From: a bacterium
GTDB lineage: Bacteria > Atribacterota > JS1 > SB-45 > 34-128
Reading direction: 5' to 3'
Length of the DNA stretch: 8,608 nt
Assembly (NCBI GenBank): GCA_018903015.1
Contig: JAHIPR010000229.1
Coordinates: forward strand, 1-8,608
Notes under the pieces: model-generated
Told to the model about the DNA's origin: nothing
Databases searched by the model: none
The model's input: only the letters and a program-made list of their open reading frames with translations
Shown here: positions 993 to 7,558 of the stretch, in pieces
Position numbering within the stretch: the stretch's first letter is position 1
Layout of the letters: each line of letters begins with the position of its first letter
Translations under genes and position numbers: made by a program

Positions 993-1694
993 TTATCCTA
1001 AGTAGGCTTTAATTACTTTAGGATTTTTAGCGACTTCATGCGCAGGACCCTCTAAGATAATATTTCCCGTTTCCAAAACATAAGCTCGATGAGCCACTTC
1101 TAAAGCCATATGGGCGTTTTGCTCTACCAATAAAATAGTAGTGCCTTCAGCGTTTACCTGTCGTATTACTCGGAATATGTCCTGAACTAAGAGGGGTGCC
1201 AAACCCATAGATGGTTCATCTAACAACATAAGTTTAGCTCGAGCCATTAAACCACGACCCAAGGCTAACATCTGTTGTTCTCCTCCGGATAAGGTTTCTC
1301 CAAGTTGAAATTTTCGTTCTTTCATTAAGGGGAATAAGTCATACACTTTATTTAAATCTTCTTGAATTGCTATTTTATCTCTTCTTCCCCAGGCAGCAAG
1401 TTCTAAATTTTCCTGAACCGTCAGTGGTCCAAATATTATTCTTCCTTCTGGGACATGAGCTATACCTAATTTTACTAAATCATATGCTGGTACAGATAAC
1501 AAGTCTTTATTTAAAAAAGTAATGCTTCCTCCTTGAGGTTTAAGAAGGTTAGAAATGGTGCGTAAAGTAGTTGATTTGCCAGCTCCGTTTGCTCCAATTA
1601 GGGTTACTATTTCGCCTTCTTTGACCTCGAAAGAGATTCCTTTAAGGGCTCGAATTGGTCCATAAGATACATTTAAATTATGAATTTTTAACAT
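993..1694 (-). CDS. livF: branched-chain amino acid ABC transporter ATP-binding protein LivF
   Basis: Cytoplasmic ATPase subunit that pairs with LivG to power branched-chain amino acid import through LivH/LivM. The 233-residue length is typical. Walker A GANGAGKS is at residues 34-41, the ABC signature LSGGEQQ at 134-140, and Walker B LMLLDEP at 154-160. The usual H-loop histidine is replaced by Gln in LLVEQNA (~188-193), which is normal for LivF proteins and supports F over G. The C-terminus NPKVIKAYLG is also family-typical. It starts at ATG 1694, inside the last codons of livG (17-bp overlap), with an AGGAGA-like Shine-Dalgarno about 10 bases upstream. Last gene of the liv operon. No hairpin terminator is visible in the 10-bp gap after its TAA stop, so termination must occur within the opposing M48 gene. 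Confidence 0.95.
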   Translation of the reverse strand: MLKIHNLNVSYGPIRALKGISFEVKEGEIVTLIGANGAGKSTTLRTISNLLKPQGGSITFLNKDLLSVPAYDLVKLGIAHVPEGRIIFGPLTVQENLELAAWGRRDKIAIQEDLNKVYDLFPLMKERKFQLGETLSGGEQQMLALGRGLMARAKLMLLDEPSMGLAPLLVQDIFRVIRQVNAEGTTILLVEQNAHMALEVAHRAYVLETGNIILEGPAHEVAKNPKVIKAYLG

Positions 1695-2460
1695 CTTTTT
1701 TTTCTTCTCCTAAATAAGCCTCAATTACTTTAGGATTTTTTTGTATTTCCTGAGGAGTTCCTTCTGCGATTTGTAGTCCAAAATCCATTACCATAATTCT
1801 TTCACAAATTCCCATTACAAATTGCATATGATGTTCTATTAAGAAAATAGTTAATTGAAAATCTTCTTTAATCTTTTTAACTAATTCCATTAATTTGATA
1901 GTTTCATAAGGGTTCATTCCGGCTGCCGGTTCATCGAGTAGAAGCATACTTGGTTTAGTCGCTAAAGCTCGGGCTATTTCTAATTTTCTCTGTTCGCCAT
2001 AGGGGAGGCTTCCAGCTGGGTTATTGTAATAAGTATGTAAATTAAAAAGTCGCAGCAATTCCATAGCTTGTTTATTCATTTCCTCTTCCTCACGATGATA
2101 ATTTTCATCTCTTAGTATGCCTGAGAAGATACTATAGTGAGTACGAAAGTGATAGGCAATGATAATATTTTCTAATACACTAAGGTTTGCAAAAATACGG
2201 ATATTTTGAAAGGTGCGGACAATTCCTTTTTGAGTAATTTTATGGGAAAGAAGCCCTCCGATATTCTCTTCTTGAAAAATTACTTCTCCAGAAGTAGGAG
2301 GGTATATCCCGGTGAGCACGTTAAATACAGTAGTTTTACCTGCTCCATTGGGCCCAATCAGGCCAACTAACTCATCCTTTTTAATTTGGGTATTAAATTT
2401 TTCCACCGCTTTTAGACCGCCAAAGTAGCAGCATAAATCTTTTAATTCTAAAATCGCCAC
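1678..2460 (-). CDS. livG: branched-chain amino acid ABC transporter ATP-binding protein LivG
   Basis: Second ATPase subunit of the liv importer. Walker A GPNGAGKTT is at residues 36-44 and the Q-loop Gln at 85. The helical region (~105-150) is long, as in LivG. The degenerate signature LPYGEQRKLEIARAL starts at 152, where LivG proteins commonly have LxYGxQR in place of LSGGQ. Walker B MLLLDEP is at 172-178 and H-loop His210 is in FLIEHH. The 260-residue length is normal for LivG. The start is GTG at 2458-2460, directly abutting the livM TAA stop, with a purine-rich AGGAAAGAGG Shine-Dalgarno inside the last livM codons. Translational coupling with livM is therefore likely. The C-terminal NPKVIEAYLG parallels LivF, followed by a short charged tail that overlaps the livF start. 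Confidence 0.95.
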   Translation of the reverse strand: MAILELKDLCCYFGGLKAVEKFNTQIKKDELVGLIGPNGAGKTTVFNVLTGIYPPTSGEVIFQEENIGGLLSHKITQKGIVRTFQNIRIFANLSVLENIIIAYHFRTHYSIFSGILRDENYHREEEEMNKQAMELLRLFNLHTYYNNPAGSLPYGEQRKLEIARALATKPSMLLLDEPAAGMNPYETIKLMELVKKIKEDFQLTIFLIEHHMQFVMGICERIMVMDFGLQIAEGTPQEIQKNPKVIEAYLGEEKKDVKNS

Positions 2461-3525
2461 TTAATTTACCTCTTTCCTTTTGGGGACTAAAAATGAAAAT
2501 TCACGATTACCAAAGATACCATCCGGTTTCCTTAACATTAATATAACTAAAAGTAAGGGATAGATAACCATTCTCCATTGTTGAAAGTTAATTACTCTTA
2601 AAAATTCTGGGAGAATTGTGAGCCCGGTAGCAGCTAAAATTGAACCGGTAATACTTCCCATCCCACCAGCATAAAGGTAAATAAGGTAATCAATTGATTT
2701 TATGAAGCTGAAATTGTCAGGGTGAATAAATCTTAAGACATGAGCAAAGAGTCCACCCCCGACACCAGCAAAAAAAGCACTTAAGCTGAAAGCGATAATT
2801 TTATACCGAGTAGTATTAATGCCCATAGTTTCCGCTGCGACTTCATTTTCTCTTATAGAAAGACAGGCTCTACCATGCGTAGAGTAAATGAAATTACGCA
2901 TAATGACAACTGATAATATAGAGATAACATATACTAACCAAAATTTAGAAAGGGCTGGTATGGTTGATAATCCTCGGGGTCCACTTATTTTGTCAATAGT
3001 TTCTGAAAAATTAATTAATCCTATACGATTTAAAAAAGCAGCAATTTCATCAGAGGCGCGAACGATCGAGCGAACTATTTCACCAAAAGCTAAAGTAACT
3101 ATGGCTAAATAGTCACCTTTTAATTTTAAAGTGGGAAGTCCGATGAGATATCCGGCAATTGCGGCCATTAATCCTCCAATAATTAGAGAAAAAATAAAAA
3201 GTGCTAATTGAGGGAAATAAGCCATTTTTGCTGCCTTAAATAGAATAGTAGTAAAATAAGCTGAAGTGTATGCTCCGATACACATAAAACCAGCGTGACC
3301 AATCGAAAATTGTCCGGTGAATCCGTTGATTAAGTTTAAACTTACAGTCATTATGATATTGATTAAAGCAAACATAAGGATTTGCATATAATAACGGGTA
3401 AGAAGGCGAGGAACAATTGGAGTAGTACCGTTAAGTATTTCAATTAATAAATAAACCAGAACGGTTATTAATATAAATTTATAATATTTTTTTATTAGAT
3501 TAATAATATTTTTTATAATTTTCAT
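2461..3525 (-). CDS. livM: branched-chain amino acid ABC transporter permease LivM
   Basis: Inner-membrane permease that forms the translocation path with LivH. Length is 354 residues with about nine to ten hydrophobic segments after a basic N-terminus. Family hallmarks are GFTGQFSIGHAGFMCIGAY (~68-86), PTLKLKGDYLAIVTLAFGEI (~130-150, the cytoplasmic coupling region characteristic of LivM), a RACLSIRENEVAAETMGIN segment (~219-237), and AFFAGVGGGLFAH (~250-262). ATG start at 3523-3525, four bases after the livH stop, with an AAAAGGT Shine-Dalgarno about seven bases upstream overlapping the end of livH. It abuts livG downstream with no gap. Lies in the operon K-H-M-G-F and probably depends entirely on the upstream liv promoter. 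Confidence 0.95.
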   Translation of the reverse strand: MKIIKNIINLIKKYYKFILITVLVYLLIEILNGTTPIVPRLLTRYYMQILMFALINIIMTVSLNLINGFTGQFSIGHAGFMCIGAYTSAYFTTILFKAAKMAYFPQLALFIFSLIIGGLMAAIAGYLIGLPTLKLKGDYLAIVTLAFGEIVRSIVRASDEIAAFLNRIGLINFSETIDKISGPRGLSTIPALSKFWLVYVISILSVVIMRNFIYSTHGRACLSIRENEVAAETMGINTTRYKIIAFSLSAFFAGVGGGLFAHVLRFIHPDNFSFIKSIDYLIYLYAGGMGSITGSILAATGLTILPEFLRVINFQQWRMVIYPLLLVILMLRKPDGIFGNREFSFLVPKRKEVN

Positions 3526-3529
3526 CAGT

Positions 3530-4594
3530 TTATACCTTTTCTTTGGTGAATTTTCCTAAGAGCCCTGCCGGTTTAAATATTAAAACTACGATCAGGATGA
3601 CAAAGGCAATAACGTAGCCAAAATTGGAATTAATAGAAGTAGCAAAGGTTTCGGAGATACCCATTACATAACTTCCTAACATAGCTCCCGGGATACTTCC
3701 AATACCTCCTAAAACCGCAGCTATAAAAGCTTTAAGGCCGGGCCAGATTCCTAAATAGGGCGATTGTAATTGCCCATAAGTCAGTGCAAATAATGTACCT
3801 GCCGCAGCAGCCAGTGAAGTTCCTATGCCAAAAGTGATAGAGATGATGTTATTTATATTTATACCCATCATCAGGCAGGCATCTTTATGAAAGGCTACCG
3901 CCCGCATTGCCTTTCCGATCATAGTTTTTTTTACAATATATTGTAATAAAATCATAAGAATAACAGTTATTATAATATCCAAAATCTTAATGTTATTAAT
4001 GGTGATTCCAGCTATATCATATGTTGCATCGGCAATTAATGCAGGAAAAGGAAGGAACCGTGGGCCAAATACGATTTTATTTAAAGGAAAGGGGACATTC
4101 TCAGGAGAAAGGGCAAAAAAGTTCTCTAAGAATAGAGAAACACCTAAAGCAGTAATTAAAGCCGCTAATCTGGGCTTAAATCTTAAAGGTTTATAAGCAA
4201 TCTTTTCTATAGTCATTCCTAATAGTGCGGTAACAGCCATAGAAAAAATTAAAACTACTATAAAAGGAAAACCAAAGTTGTGAGCAATTAGATAATTACC
4301 CAAGAAACAAGAGATATAAGCACCAAACATAAAAAGGTCGCCATGGGCAAAATTAATCAGTTTGATAATTCCATAAATCATAGTGTAACCTAAAGCAATT
4401 AACGCATATATGCTTCCCAGTTGAATTCCATTTACTAATTGTTGTAGGAATGATTGAATTCCAAAAGATAAAATATATAAAAATAAAAAAAATAGAATAA
4501 TTACAGAAATAAAAACGTATTTTTTCCAATTTGCCCATTTATTGTAATTCAATATATTATTATTTATAGAATCAGATAGTTGCTTTTTAGTCAT
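3530..4594 (-). CDS. livH: branched-chain amino acid ABC transporter permease LivH, with N-terminal extension
   Basis: Inner-membrane permease partner of LivM. The family core begins with FLQQLVNGIQLGSIYALIALG and the hallmark INFAHGDLFMFGAY, and ends with the GYVIAFVILIVVLIFKPAGLLGK region. The GLKAFIAAVLGGIGSIPGAMLG loop is also typical. I chose ATG 4594 (354 residues). It has a GGGAAAG Shine-Dalgarno five to six bases upstream, whereas the longer option TTG 4657 sits in the loop of a 16-bp hairpin with no ribosome site. Even so, the protein carries about 50 residues before the usual LivH start: a polar ~25-residue stretch (Asn/Lys-rich) and an additional hydrophobic helix at roughly residues 27-45. 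Typical LivH proteins of about 290-310 residues begin near the LVNGIQLG motif. It is 130 bases downstream of livK, which suggests post-transcriptional uncoupling from it. Confidence 0.92.
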   Translation of the reverse strand: MTKKQLSDSINNNILNYNKWANWKKYVFISVIILFFLFLYILSFGIQSFLQQLVNGIQLGSIYALIALGYTMIYGIIKLINFAHGDLFMFGAYISCFLGNYLIAHNFGFPFIVVLIFSMAVTALLGMTIEKIAYKPLRFKPRLAALITALGVSLFLENFFALSPENVPFPLNKIVFGPRFLPFPALIADATYDIAGITINNIKILDIIITVILMILLQYIVKKTMIGKAMRAVAFHKDACLMMGININNIISITFGIGTSLAAAAGTLFALTYGQLQSPYLGIWPGLKAFIAAVLGGIGSIPGAMLGSYVMGISETFATSINSNFGYVIAFVILIVVLIFKPAGLLGKFTKEKV

Positions 4595-4639
4595 ATTCTT
4601 TCCCAATTTTTTAAAAAATATCTTTACTGTTTTATATAA

Positions 4640-4676
4640 TATAACAGGATATTGCAAAATGCAATATCCTGTTATA
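4640..4676 (-). promoter_or_regulatory. perfect 16-bp stem-loop between livK and livH
   Basis: Bases 4640-4655 and 4661-4676 are exact inverted repeats (arm TATAACAGGATATTGC) separated by a 5-base loop, in the gap after livK. On the transcript strand the stem is followed by UUAUAUAAAACAG rather than a clean U-run, so it is a poor intrinsic terminator. It could be an mRNA-stabilising or processing hairpin, or a partial attenuator. Such elements are known after the binding-protein gene in ABC transporter operons, where they raise binding-protein levels over the permease. It also blocks the alternative TTG start of livH in its loop. Confidence 0.8.
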
Positions 4677-4724
4677 GGGACTTAATTAGTTGTCTAAAGA
4701 CAATTTGCACTAATCATTTAGATT

Positions 4725-5864
4725 TTATGGTTGGACAAATTTCTGGAAGACAAATTTGCCGTTCTCTACTTTAATTATTGCAGCCTTTTTAATGGGATCA
4801 CCATTTTCATTAAAAGTAATTTGACCTGAAACGCACTCTAAATTAGTTGCAAAGATAGCATCTCTAATTGCTGCGCCATCTGTAGAACCGGCTCTTTGTA
4901 GAGAATCAATTAAAATTAAGGCTGCATCGTAGGCTAAAGTCGCTAAGGCATCAGGAGTTTGTCCATAAGTTTCTGCGTATTTTTTTACAAAGTTCTGCAC
5001 AATTGGTCTAGGGTCTTCAGGCGAATAATGATTGCAGAAATACCCACCTTCTACTGCCTCTCCACCTAATTTAGGAAATTCTGCTGAATCCCATCCATCT
5101 GCTCCGACAAAAGGAACGGTTATTCCTAAACCTCGGGCCTGTTTAGCCATTAAAGCGGCAGCAGAATAATATGCATCTAAAAAGATTACATCCGGATTAG
5201 CAGATTTAATATTGGTTAATTGGGCAGAGAAATCAGTAGTTTTATCTTCATCAGTAAAAGATTCGTACGCCACTACTTTACCGCCTAATTTTTCAAAACT
5301 TTCTCTAAAGGCTTCAGCTAATCCCTTAGTATAGTCATTAGCATTATCAAAGATAACTGCTGCGGTTTTTGCTTTTAAATCATTGGTACTAAAAGTCGCT
5401 ACTACAGCACCCTGGAAGGGATCAAGAAAACAGGCTCGGAAAATATAGTCGCCAGTAAGAGTAACTTGGACTGCAGTAGAAGTTGGACTAATAACTGGGA
5501 CGCCAGCATCTTGAGCAATAGGGGCACCAGCTAAAGTACACTTACTCATTACCGAGCCAAGGATAGCAACTACTTCATCTTGGTCTATAAGTTTACGAAA
5601 TGCATTGGCTGCTACTTCGGGAGAACCTTGGTCATCTTCAAAAATGTAATTGATTAAATATTTTGTTCCTCCGATGTCAATTCCGCCCTCAGCATTTACT
5701 GCTTTAAAGGCTAATAAACAACCATTTTTAGTAGAAGCTCCATAAGTAGCTGCCCCCCCTGTCAGGGGAGCGACTCCACCAATTCTAACAATTTTTGCCG
5801 AGGCGACTGAAACAGAAAATAAAAAACATACTAAAATTAATAAAATCAACAATTTCTTATTCAT
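4725..5864 (-). CDS. livK: branched-chain amino acid ABC transporter substrate-binding protein LivK
   Basis: Extracytoplasmic binding protein that delivers branched-chain or related amino acids to LivH/LivM. Residues 1-23 form a Sec signal peptide: MNKK, a long Leu/Ile/Val core, then ASA before Lys24. No lipobox is present (the only nearby Cys, residue 13, follows LILV). The mature protein therefore looks soluble and periplasmic, implying an outer membrane. The body has the Peripla_BP_6 fold pattern: IGGVAPLTGGAATYG at the N-lobe, AILGSVMSKCTLAGAP and GVPVISPTST near the ligand site, PDVIFLDAYYSAAALMAKQARGLG in the C-lobe, and TPDALATLAYDAALIL near the end. Length 379 is typical. ATG 5864 is preceded by a strong AAAAGGAGAT Shine-Dalgarno (5871-5880). 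First gene of the operon, following a 5' leader of over 300 bases that carries a riboswitch. Exact substrate within the family cannot be read from sequence. Confidence 0.94.
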   Translation of the reverse strand: MNKKLLILLILVCFLFSVSVASAKIVRIGGVAPLTGGAATYGASTKNGCLLAFKAVNAEGGIDIGGTKYLINYIFEDDQGSPEVAANAFRKLIDQDEVVAILGSVMSKCTLAGAPIAQDAGVPVISPTSTAVQVTLTGDYIFRACFLDPFQGAVVATFSTNDLKAKTAAVIFDNANDYTKGLAEAFRESFEKLGGKVVAYESFTDEDKTTDFSAQLTNIKSANPDVIFLDAYYSAAALMAKQARGLGITVPFVGADGWDSAEFPKLGGEAVEGGYFCNHYSPEDPRPIVQNFVKKYAETYGQTPDALATLAYDAALILIDSLQRAGSTDGAAIRDAIFATNLECVSGQITFNENGDPIKKAAIIKVENGKFVFQKFVQP

Positions 5865-6031: not shown

Positions 6032-6080
6032 AAATAGCCCAAAGGTTTGGTTCAAATTTATGGAACCTATCCTTCAGGCT
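6030..6080 (-). terminator. intrinsic terminator of the riboswitch expression platform
   Basis: The 18-base arm AGCCTGAAGGATAGGTTC (6080 down to 6063) pairs with GAACCAAACCTTTGGGCT (6053 down to 6036) across a 9-base loop, with only two A-A mismatches and two G-U pairs. It is followed by ATTTTT (6035 down to 6030). This is a strong rho-independent terminator placed before the livK coding sequence, so it must be regulated for the operon to be expressed. Its 5' arm contains the 3' part of the ykkC-like aptamer. Confidence 0.87.
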
Positions 6081-6170
6081 TTTTTCCTAAAAGTGTGGCA
6101 TTTATAAATAAATGCTTTATACCGCTCGGTCCAGACTTTTTCAAAAAACGGAACCCTAGGTATACTCCCA
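6063..6170 (-). ncRNA. ykkC-class riboswitch aptamer, probably the ppGpp subtype (2a)
   Basis: Read on the minus strand, the leader contains, in order, the conserved ykkC words. CCTAGGGTTCCG is at 6160-6149, and CTGGACCGAGCGG at 6134-6122. A 7-bp hairpin with arm GCATTTA occupies 6115-6098, then come ACAC and AGGAAAAAAGCCT (6088-6076), which matches the class's GGG-A-rich-loop-GCCC element. ACCTA (6161-6157) can pair with TAGGT (6069-6065) as the closing helix. From knowledge of the class, guanidine-I RNAs typically read GGUCCGAGAGA, whereas this copy reads GGACCGAGCGG as in subtype 2. Members of subtype 2 sense ppGpp, PRPP or nucleoside diphosphates. The ppGpp subtype is known upstream of branched-chain amino acid synthesis and transport genes, which fits livK. 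The class is well supported; the ligand is inferred from context. Confidence 0.82.
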
Positions 6171-6193
6171 ATATAATATTTAATTTTGAAAAA

Positions 6194-6222
6194 ATCTTAC
6201 CATGCACGGTTATAATTGTCAA
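6194..6222 (-). promoter_or_regulatory. main promoter of the liv operon
   Basis: Perfect -35 TTGACA (6217-6222), a 17-base spacer, and -10 TAAGAT (6194-6199) on the minus strand. Transcription would begin near 6187, about 17 bases before the first helix of the ykkC-like RNA and about 320 bases before the livK start. The placement immediately upstream of the aptamer supports both calls. Confidence 0.85.
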
Positions 6223-6309: not shown

Positions 6310-7080
6310 TTATATTTGAAAAGGTACGGGAGTAAAAGATAGGACACAGAAAATTAAGGCGCAGATTCCCAATATTTTTCTTCTTTTGTTTAAAGGAGTG
6401 AAATCATCTAATGGTGGAGGATGATTAAATCCAAATATAAGAAGTAAGACAAATAATAAGGTCCACGCTGGGTTAACGAATATACAGATAAGGCCTAAAA
6501 TACCCAAGGTTATATAATAAGCAATTTTGCTATTTTTACCGAACAAGGAATAAATTATATGTCCGCCATCTAACTGTCCAACCGGAAGGAGATTTAAAGC
6601 AGTTACAAACAATCCCACCCAGCCCGCATAAGCTATAGGATGCAGGATTATATCCTGGCCTTCGGGAAGATACCCGAACATTATTTTTTCTATAAATGAG
6701 AACAGTATGGAGCTTCCCAGAGGCATAACCGGTCCTTCGATTTCTGAAATTACTGCTATTTCTGATAATTTAAGCCCGATTATTATAGTAGGAATAGTGA
6801 GGACCAAACCTACAAAAGGTCCAGCTATCCCGATGTCAAATAAAGCTTTGCGATCAGGCATAATCCCTTTCATTTTGATAACTGCCCCTAAAGTACCAAA
6901 AGGAGATAGGGGAAAAGGAATAAAAAAAGGTAGAGTGACTTCTACCCCGTATCTTCTGCTAATAAAAAAATGTCCTAGTTCGTGAGCAAGTAGAATAGTG
7001 ATTAAAAATAGGGCATACCAAATACCACCTACAAAAAAACAAGAAATTATAGTTAGAAGAAATAAAATTAAATTTAAAAT
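6310..7080 (-). CDS. site-2 protease family (M50) membrane metallopeptidase, probable ATT start
   Basis: Intramembrane zinc protease related to S2P/EGY-type enzymes, which cut substrates within the membrane. Numbering from the proposed ATT start (256 residues), the first helix is LILFLLTIISCFFVGG and the catalytic helix carries HELGH at 33-37 (6970-6984). Family motifs follow: LPFFIPFPLSPFGTLGAVI, then PDRKALFDIGIAGPFVG, and NLLPVGQLDGGH with Asn163, Pro166 and Asp171 supplying the third zinc ligand. A HPP motif lies near the end. No ATG, GTG or TTG occurs in frame between the TGA at 7087-7089 and ATG 6873, and ATG 6873 would delete the HExxH helix. The Shine-Dalgarno GAGGTGA (7087-7093) is well placed for ATT 7078-7080. 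Family call is strong, the start is inferred, and the substrate is unknown. It lacks the longer N-terminal domain of many relatives. Confidence 0.87.
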   Translation of the reverse strand: MLNLILFLLTIISCFFVGGIWYALFLITILLAHELGHFFISRRYGVEVTLPFFIPFPLSPFGTLGAVIKMKGIMPDRKALFDIGIAGPFVGLVLTIPTIIIGLKLSEIAVISEIEGPVMPLGSSILFSFIEKIMFGYLPEGQDIILHPIAYAGWVGLFVTALNLLPVGQLDGGHIIYSLFGKNSKIAYYITLGILGLICIFVNPAWTLLFVLLLIFGFNHPPPLDDFTPLNKRRKILGICALIFCVLSFTPVPFQI

Positions 7081-7267: not shown

Positions 7268-7558
7268 ATGAATAAAGATGGAAAAAAAGTAAGAGCCCAT
7301 CTTCTAATTTCTGGAAGAGTACAGGGAGTAGCTTTTCGTTATTATACCCAGGATATTGCCCAAAGTTTAGAAATAAAGGGATGGGTTAGGAATTGTTGGG
7401 ATGGTAAGGTAGAGATAGTTATAGAAGGGGAAGAAGATAGAGTTAAAGAACTAATAGATTGGTGCTATCGAGGACCGGGGAGTGCAATTGTAGAAAAAGT
7501 AGACGTAGAATGGGAAGAATACGGAGGAGAATTCAATTCTTTCGGTATCAGGGGATAG
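7268..7558 (+). CDS. acyP: acylphosphatase
   Basis: Small cytoplasmic hydrolase that cleaves carboxyl-phosphate bonds of acyl phosphates such as acetyl- or carbamoyl-phosphate. Length 96 matches the ~90-100-residue family. The signature GRVQGVAFRYY (residues 16-26) contains the phosphate-binding loop and catalytic Arg24. The second motif GWVRNCWDGKVEIVIEG (38-54) carries catalytic Asn42. The downstream GPGSAIVEKVDV (69-80) matches the usual GPP-A-V segment. A ribosome site AAGGAT (7252-7257) lies ten bases before ATG 7268. It appears to be monocistronic, transcribed from its own promoter and divergent from the site-2 protease gene. No GC-rich terminator is visible after the TAG stop. The residues after the signature are acidic and Trp-rich but otherwise ordinary. 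Confidence 0.95.
   Translation: MNKDGKKVRAHLLISGRVQGVAFRYYTQDIAQSLEIKGWVRNCWDGKVEIVIEGEEDRVKELIDWCYRGPGSAIVEKVDVEWEEYGGEFNSFGIRG

Follow-up and report, generated by a model that had tools for sequence, protein, structure and literature searches.

The liv operon and its leader

The window, the whole stretch of 8,608 nucleotides that was analysed (contig JAHIPR010000229.1), comes from a bacterium of the phylum Atribacterota. On its minus strand it carries a livK-H-M-G-F operon behind a structured leader:

6194..6222 (-), promoter: TTGACA (6222-6217), 17-nt spacer, TAAGAT (6199-6194), TG before the -10; 10 of 12 consensus positions
6061..6170 (-), predicted ykkC subtype 2a (ppGpp-type) aptamer, from RF00442, folding, covariation and the R2 model
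6170-6166/6065-6061 (-), aptamer helix P0
6164-6159/6123-6118 (-), aptamer helix P1
6155-6151/6132-6128 (-), aptamer helix P1a
6115-6109/6104-6098 (-), aptamer helix P2
6093-6086/6078-6071 (-), aptamer helix P3
6030..6080 (-), terminator hairpin from RNA folding: 6080-6071 with 6045-6036, 6067-6063 with 6053-6049, U tract 6034-6030
4725..5864 (-), livK, amino-acid ABC transporter binding protein, with AGGAG at 5877-5873
3530..4657 (-), livH-type permease; listed with TTG as start codon, a later ATG possible
2461..3525 (-), livM-type permease
1678..2460 (-), livG-type ATPase
993..1694 (-), livF-type ATPase

The liv operon that the preliminary description had placed downstream is there, a LivK-type binding protein gene followed by H-M-G-F-type genes, with 196 bases between the end of P0 (6061) and the livK ATG (5864). 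The Liv models score highest among the transporter models, although they and the urea models all stay below their curated cut-offs. Among proteins of solved structure, LivK is closest to branched-chain amino-acid binding proteins. Relatives of LivK at 92-93% identity come from Atribacteria or Atribacterota wherever the source states the organism.

Between livK and livH lies a perfect 17-bp hairpin without a U tract (4632-4685, minus strand; the fold of 4724-4625 has -30 kcal/mol, z -6.3), which may act in mRNA processing or stability and thereby raise livK above the permeases. Two ordinary neighbours are a gene with an M50 peptidase domain, which lies upstream of the leader (6310-6873, minus strand), and an acylphosphatase gene (7268-7558, plus strand).

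From the promoter, transcription would be expected to start near 6187. With 5 promoter-like sites found where 3.7 were expected, a consensus match by itself carries little weight; the letters CTTGACA are the same in all five aligned livK leaders. With TTGACA-17-TAAGAT upstream and a LivK-type gene downstream, the element occupies the position between promoter and livK that had been claimed for it.

The motifs of the ykkC class, CCTAGGGTTCCG (6160-6149), CTGGACCGAGCGG (6134-6122), a variable hairpin and AGGAAAAAAGCCT (6088-6076), are all present on the minus strand in the order first described. The proposed span of 6063..6170 contains the element, which is slightly longer, with P0 closed by 6170/6061 and a terminator that extends to 6030. 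The Rfam covariance search suggested at the outset gave a significant match by cmscan to RF00442 at 6170-6070 (-), with the whole model (1-107) aligned at E 6e-8, but with 55.2 bits it stays short of the gathering score (63), and annotation by cut-off would pass over the aptamer. No other Rfam family matches the aptamer stretch at E <= 10 by cmscan. Elsewhere in the Rfam scan of the window, matches to mir-2804, snoR12, rli37 and rliD are far under their own cut-offs and are taken as chance, although a real hairpin underlies the mir-2804 match. Membership of the ykkC class is confirmed by the model R2, whose training set was 12 Clostridia-type aptamers that precede amino-acid or peptide genes, with no Atribacterota among them; R2 scores the window at 94.2 bits, with an E-value of 1.2e-20 in 408 kb. 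Here and below, Clostridia-type genomes are those from the phylum of a Clostridiales bacterium.

Folding of 6172-6057 yields P0, P1, P1a, P2 and P3, and the minimum-energy structure (-27.7 kcal/mol) includes P0. Taken alone, the aptamer does not stand out by its folding energy (z -1.5; 15 of 200 shuffles fold equally well), and the comparative evidence is stronger. It comes from an alignment of 19 copies that share the P3 form of the window (the window included; 22 copies minus a near-duplicate, one cut by a contig end and one divergent). Standard pairs fill 96.7% of pair cells and 16 of 31 pairs have both sides changed, counts that are biased in favour of the structure because it was drawn on the window. 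None of 500 shuffles reached either the standard-pair share or the both-side changes; 45 of 500 reached the number of further pair types. P0 is paired in 100% of cells, with both sides changed in three of its five pairs, and P3 is a plain helix with 99.3% of cells paired.

Subtype marks and the P3 helix

The RF00442 score cannot settle the subtype because guanidine, PRPP and ppGpp types all match that family. Individual positions are more telling. They are numbered here after the T. mathranii aptamer (PMC6031431), with the numbers transferred by the alignment made for this study:

6124..6125 (-), equivalents of G48-C49; G and C in 19 of 19 copies
6093..6096 (-), equivalents of A74-C75-A76-C77; A, C and A in 19 of 19 copies, C77 in 18 of 19 (one gap)
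6071..6078 (-), 3' strand of P3, CCUGAAGG; by the same alignment 1 nt shorter than in PRPP aptamers, with position 96 absent

The available portion of PMC6031431 describes how the subtypes differ. Guanidine-I aptamers have A where subtypes 2a and 2b have a pyrimidine (C49), and P0 is an addition in 2a and 2b. G96 is more than 97% conserved in 2b and is absent or another base in 2a, where the guanine of ppGpp is paired by C75. A single change, G96A, shifts specificity about 40,000-fold. In the window, position 49 is C (6124), which argues against the guanidine-I type as characterised there. A pyrimidine occupies this position in 57 of the 58 copies described below by script, and in the 58th it is a T by eye. 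C75 of the window (6095) would pair with the guanine of ppGpp if it has the role given to it in that source, and position 96 is absent, a placement that rests on the alignment made here. The other ppGpp contacts, with roles likewise drawn from that portion of PMC6031431, are also retained: all 19 copies have A5, G6, G48, C75, A76 and G105, 18 of the 19 have C77 and G104, and every contact is present in the window.

The locus thus combines the ykkC core, a pyrimidine at 49, P0, C75 without G96, an amino-acid gene and a competing terminator. Assignment to subtype 2a, with ppGpp as the predicted ligand and guanidine and PRPP disfavoured, is well supported. The ligand had first been proposed from gene context; the same call now also comes from pocket positions and from models made with foreign genomes. 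Compared with the known ppGpp riboswitches (PMC7266159, PMC10687018 and PMC12373219, along with PMC6031431, each as far as the available text goes), the window has the same P0, pyrimidine 49, C75, absent G96, terminator-based ON platform and branched-chain amino-acid genes. Neither the class nor its link to livK is new, since a livK-linked ppGpp aptamer is already known from Oxobacter pfennigii, where it is reported to prefer ppGpp about 6-fold (PMC12373219).

The window differs from these riboswitches in its Atribacterota host and in the lower part of P3, a continuous CUUUU/GAAGG helix where 2a aptamers usually have CCG..CGG with an internal loop or bulge. Positions 78-79 are UU in the window and CG in 12 of 12 Clostridia-type amino-acid-linked aptamers. 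With up to 3 mismatches, the P3 letters ACACUUUU..CCUGAAGG occur in 13 of 50 Atribacterota genomes (18 sites) and in none of 398 Clostridia-type genomes, in a search that covers these letters rather than every sequence able to form a continuous helix. ACACUU is found in none of 30 Clostridia-type loci taken from the best matches of R1, a model of the window's form. R1 itself matches at least 159 of 299 Clostridia-type genomes (11 candidates scored per genome) and is therefore a marker of the wider class rather than of the P3 form; the Clostridia-type tallies, with 12 or 11 candidates scored per genome, are lower bounds. The nearest Clostridia-type P3, at locus L170, reads ACACCUUUAGGG, and U-A replaces G-C at 79/98 in L156, which inspection by eye and kinship to L161 mark as a purine-permease copy. 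Lower P3 is therefore not rigid in Clostridia-type genomes either.

This distribution raises the question of a variant ligand: the livK, brnQ and gdh copies with a continuous P3 (ACACUUUU..CCUGAAGG and the like) may prefer another alarmone, for instance pppGpp or pGpp. The occurrence of the P3 letters in Atribacterota but in none of the Clostridia-type genomes is consistent with such a preference, as is the retention of ACACCGUG in P3 by the ilv copies of the same phylum, and the ppGpp/pppGpp preference does vary among known 2a aptamers (PMC12373219). The known ppGpp-contact residues are nevertheless kept and the altered P3 is a plain, almost fully paired helix, which makes a different ligand quite unlikely. 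A broader proposal, rather improbable, is that the Atribacterota ppGpp aptamer is split into an ilv form, with the usual P3 and often behind a T-box, and an uptake and nitrogen form before livK, brnQ and gdh, with a continuous P3 and position 96 deleted, the latter maybe a distinct specificity class for another alarmone or concentration range.

Related copies and competing ligands

The assignment of the window aptamer to the ppGpp type can be compared with its relatives in 50 genomes of the phylum. A search with RF00442 yields 47 copies and one with R1 yields 57, spread over 21 genomes in each case (58 copies with the window); a genome that has ykkC-type copies, PRPP type included, carries 1 to 5. 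Only 3 of the 47 RF00442 matches, all before GAF-ANTAR/gdh genes, are not under the family cut-off. The first genes behind the 58 copies fall into these groups:

ilvB cluster 18, ilvD cluster 3, proC 1
livK cluster 6 (with the window), BrnQ-type carrier 2
GAF-ANTAR protein 9 (glutamate dehydrogenase next in 7), glutamate dehydrogenase directly 2
purine genes 11 (purE 10, purC 1)
others 6 (3 ORFs without an assigned family, 1 contig end, 2 ilvD- or ilvB-like by eye)

Each named cluster had one or more members compared with NCBIfam or Pfam; the others were named by blastp clustering, except for eight purine copies named by eye.

Not every livK gene in the phylum has such a leader. Two further Atribacterota livK loci (L003 and L004) and three more distant ones (L005, L007 and L008) show no aptamer before their livK-like genes, so control of liv by the switch is not universal even in this phylum. 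At seven loci (L074 and L075 are among the gdh loci), the gene that separates a ppGpp-type aptamer from glutamate dehydrogenase encodes a GAF-ANTAR protein, a predicted RNA-binding antiterminator. The L074 protein was family-tested, and a terminator-like hairpin precedes gdh there (z -1.6 for the whole 150 nt).

A T-box lies directly upstream of 8 of the 21 usual-P3 copies (ilvB, ilvD and proC; 18 loci scanned, some of the 21 being near contig ends). The combination of T-box and ppGpp-type aptamer before ilvB or ilvD is found at L076, L080, L081, L090, L098, L103, L104 and L105. Tandems of this kind are a published arrangement for ppGpp riboswitches, as T-box(Leu)/ppGpp in the available portion of PMC9481103; the sister Atribacterota ilv leaders share the arrangement, and no T-box is among the Rfam matches of the window.

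The purine-linked copies provide an internal control for PRPP. The PRPP motif CCCNGRCGG, which contains G96, is present in 11 of 11 purine-linked copies and in none of the 47 others, the window included (one copy is cut before the site). Moreover, a guanine-type aptamer (RF00167, over cut-off) lies directly upstream of all 11 (L114-L116 and L216-L223), and guanine/PRPP tandems are a published arrangement, as far as the available text of PMC5912903 describes it. R3, a model of 18 Clostridia-type aptamers before purine genes, again with no Atribacterota, is preferred over R2 by 11 of 11 purine-linked Atribacterota copies, by 10.4 to 23.3 bits. R2 is preferred by 43 of the 47 non-purine copies; the other four are two brnQ copies (-2.6 and -3.3), one gdh copy (-19.8) and one before a 408-aa ORF (-15.0, divergent). 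Both training sets were picked by gene context, partly by blastp cluster or by eye. In the 2a set, two transporter- or peptidase-linked Clostridia-type copies possibly have G at 96, and the one-base rule is to that extent imperfect.

These comparisons bear on whether the window could hold a PRPP-sensing (subtype 2b) riboswitch. Subtype 2b has the same fold, P0 and the tail UAGGUU, its copies occur in the same phylum, and R3 still gives the window 69.4 bits. That score is 24.8 bits below R2, in a comparison that is asymmetric because R2 lacks P2 pairs, so that long P2 arms may lose score. Furthermore, G96 and purine genes belong to 2b, and the window has neither the G96 motif nor a purine gene in its operon, nor is a purine aptamer among its Rfam matches. 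A PRPP ligand is consequently very improbable, and the preliminary call of subtype 2a, now backed by C49, C75, the lack of G96 where PRPP-type relatives carry G, P0 and the bit-score difference, is upheld.

A guanidine-I riboswitch before a guanidine or urea importer, as the Rfam name implies, is extremely unlikely. RF00442 is the best Rfam family, the P1-P3 core is the same and the transporter proteins also match urea-transporter models, less strongly. Guanidine-I aptamers, however, have A49, no P0 and guanidine-related genes, whereas the window has C at 49 and a covarying P0, scores under the RF00442 cut-off, and encodes a binding protein that gives 169 bits with the branched-chain family (cut-off 477) against 64 with UrtA (cut-off 493). 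Gene context sets subtype 2c ((d)NDP) apart, with a livK operon instead of a NUDIX or HAD hydrolase gene downstream, and likewise the orphan subtype 2d was rejected, the livK operon standing in place of an EamA or TauE transporter gene.

Predicted switching and its meaning

The terminator bears on the direction of control. Its hairpin has -21.8 kcal/mol (z -4.2 for 6088-6026), and its 5' arm comprises the entire 3' strand of P3 and three of the five 3' bases of P0. A rule-based terminator scan of the window found none because its rules, restricted to loops of 3-8 bases, do not admit the 6080-6030 hairpin. Of 48 copies, made up of the window and the 47 RF00442 matches, 46 have a terminator-like hairpin that overlaps the aptamer 3' end (three partly caught), on a criterion, applied with no shuffle control, of at least 8 pairs with the aptamer 3' end in the arm before a U run; the two copies without a hairpin result include one at a contig end.

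Reuse of the P3 3' strand and part of P0 by the terminator suggests that the ligand should turn the operon on. In the available portion of PMC10687018, the closing helix (called P1 in that work and P0 in the window) gains stability from ppGpp in competition with a terminator. Without ligand, the nascent RNA would form the 6080-6030 hairpin, occupying the P3 3' strand and part of P0, and transcription would end before livK. Upon starvation, Rel/SpoT would raise ppGpp, which may bind between P0 and P3 with its guanine pairing to C75 where G96 is missing. Bound ppGpp would stabilise P0 and P3, the terminator would be blocked and the importer transcribed. A Rel/SpoT gene is found over cut-off in 23 of the 24 related genomes searched, the one miss being a 0.6 Mb bin.

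Taken together, the fold, the subtype marks, the terminator overlap, the operon and the Rel gene in related genomes, all read from sequence, indicate that the livKHMGF leader very probably contains a ppGpp-sensing (ykkC subtype 2a) transcriptional ON riboswitch, with ppGpp as the putative ligand, activation as the predicted direction of control and amino acids, presumably branched-chain, as the cargo. Literature searches pairing riboswitch with Atribacter*, or riboswitch with JS1 and candidate phylum, found no paper, and as far as the literature was searched the phylum and the P3 form ACACUUUU..CCUGAAGG are new.

For annotation, the Guanidine-I family at the Rfam cut-off would miss 44 of the 47 Atribacterota copies that RF00442 matches and would label the other three with the wrong ligand. 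The occurrence of PRPP-type and ppGpp-type copies in one phylum, differing at the key base, is a natural test of specificity. If the two-form split were true, amino-acid import and synthesis would switch on at different points of starvation. For the ppGpp riboswitch reading itself, the finding would extend to Atribacterota a direct RNA link from the stringent signal to amino-acid import.
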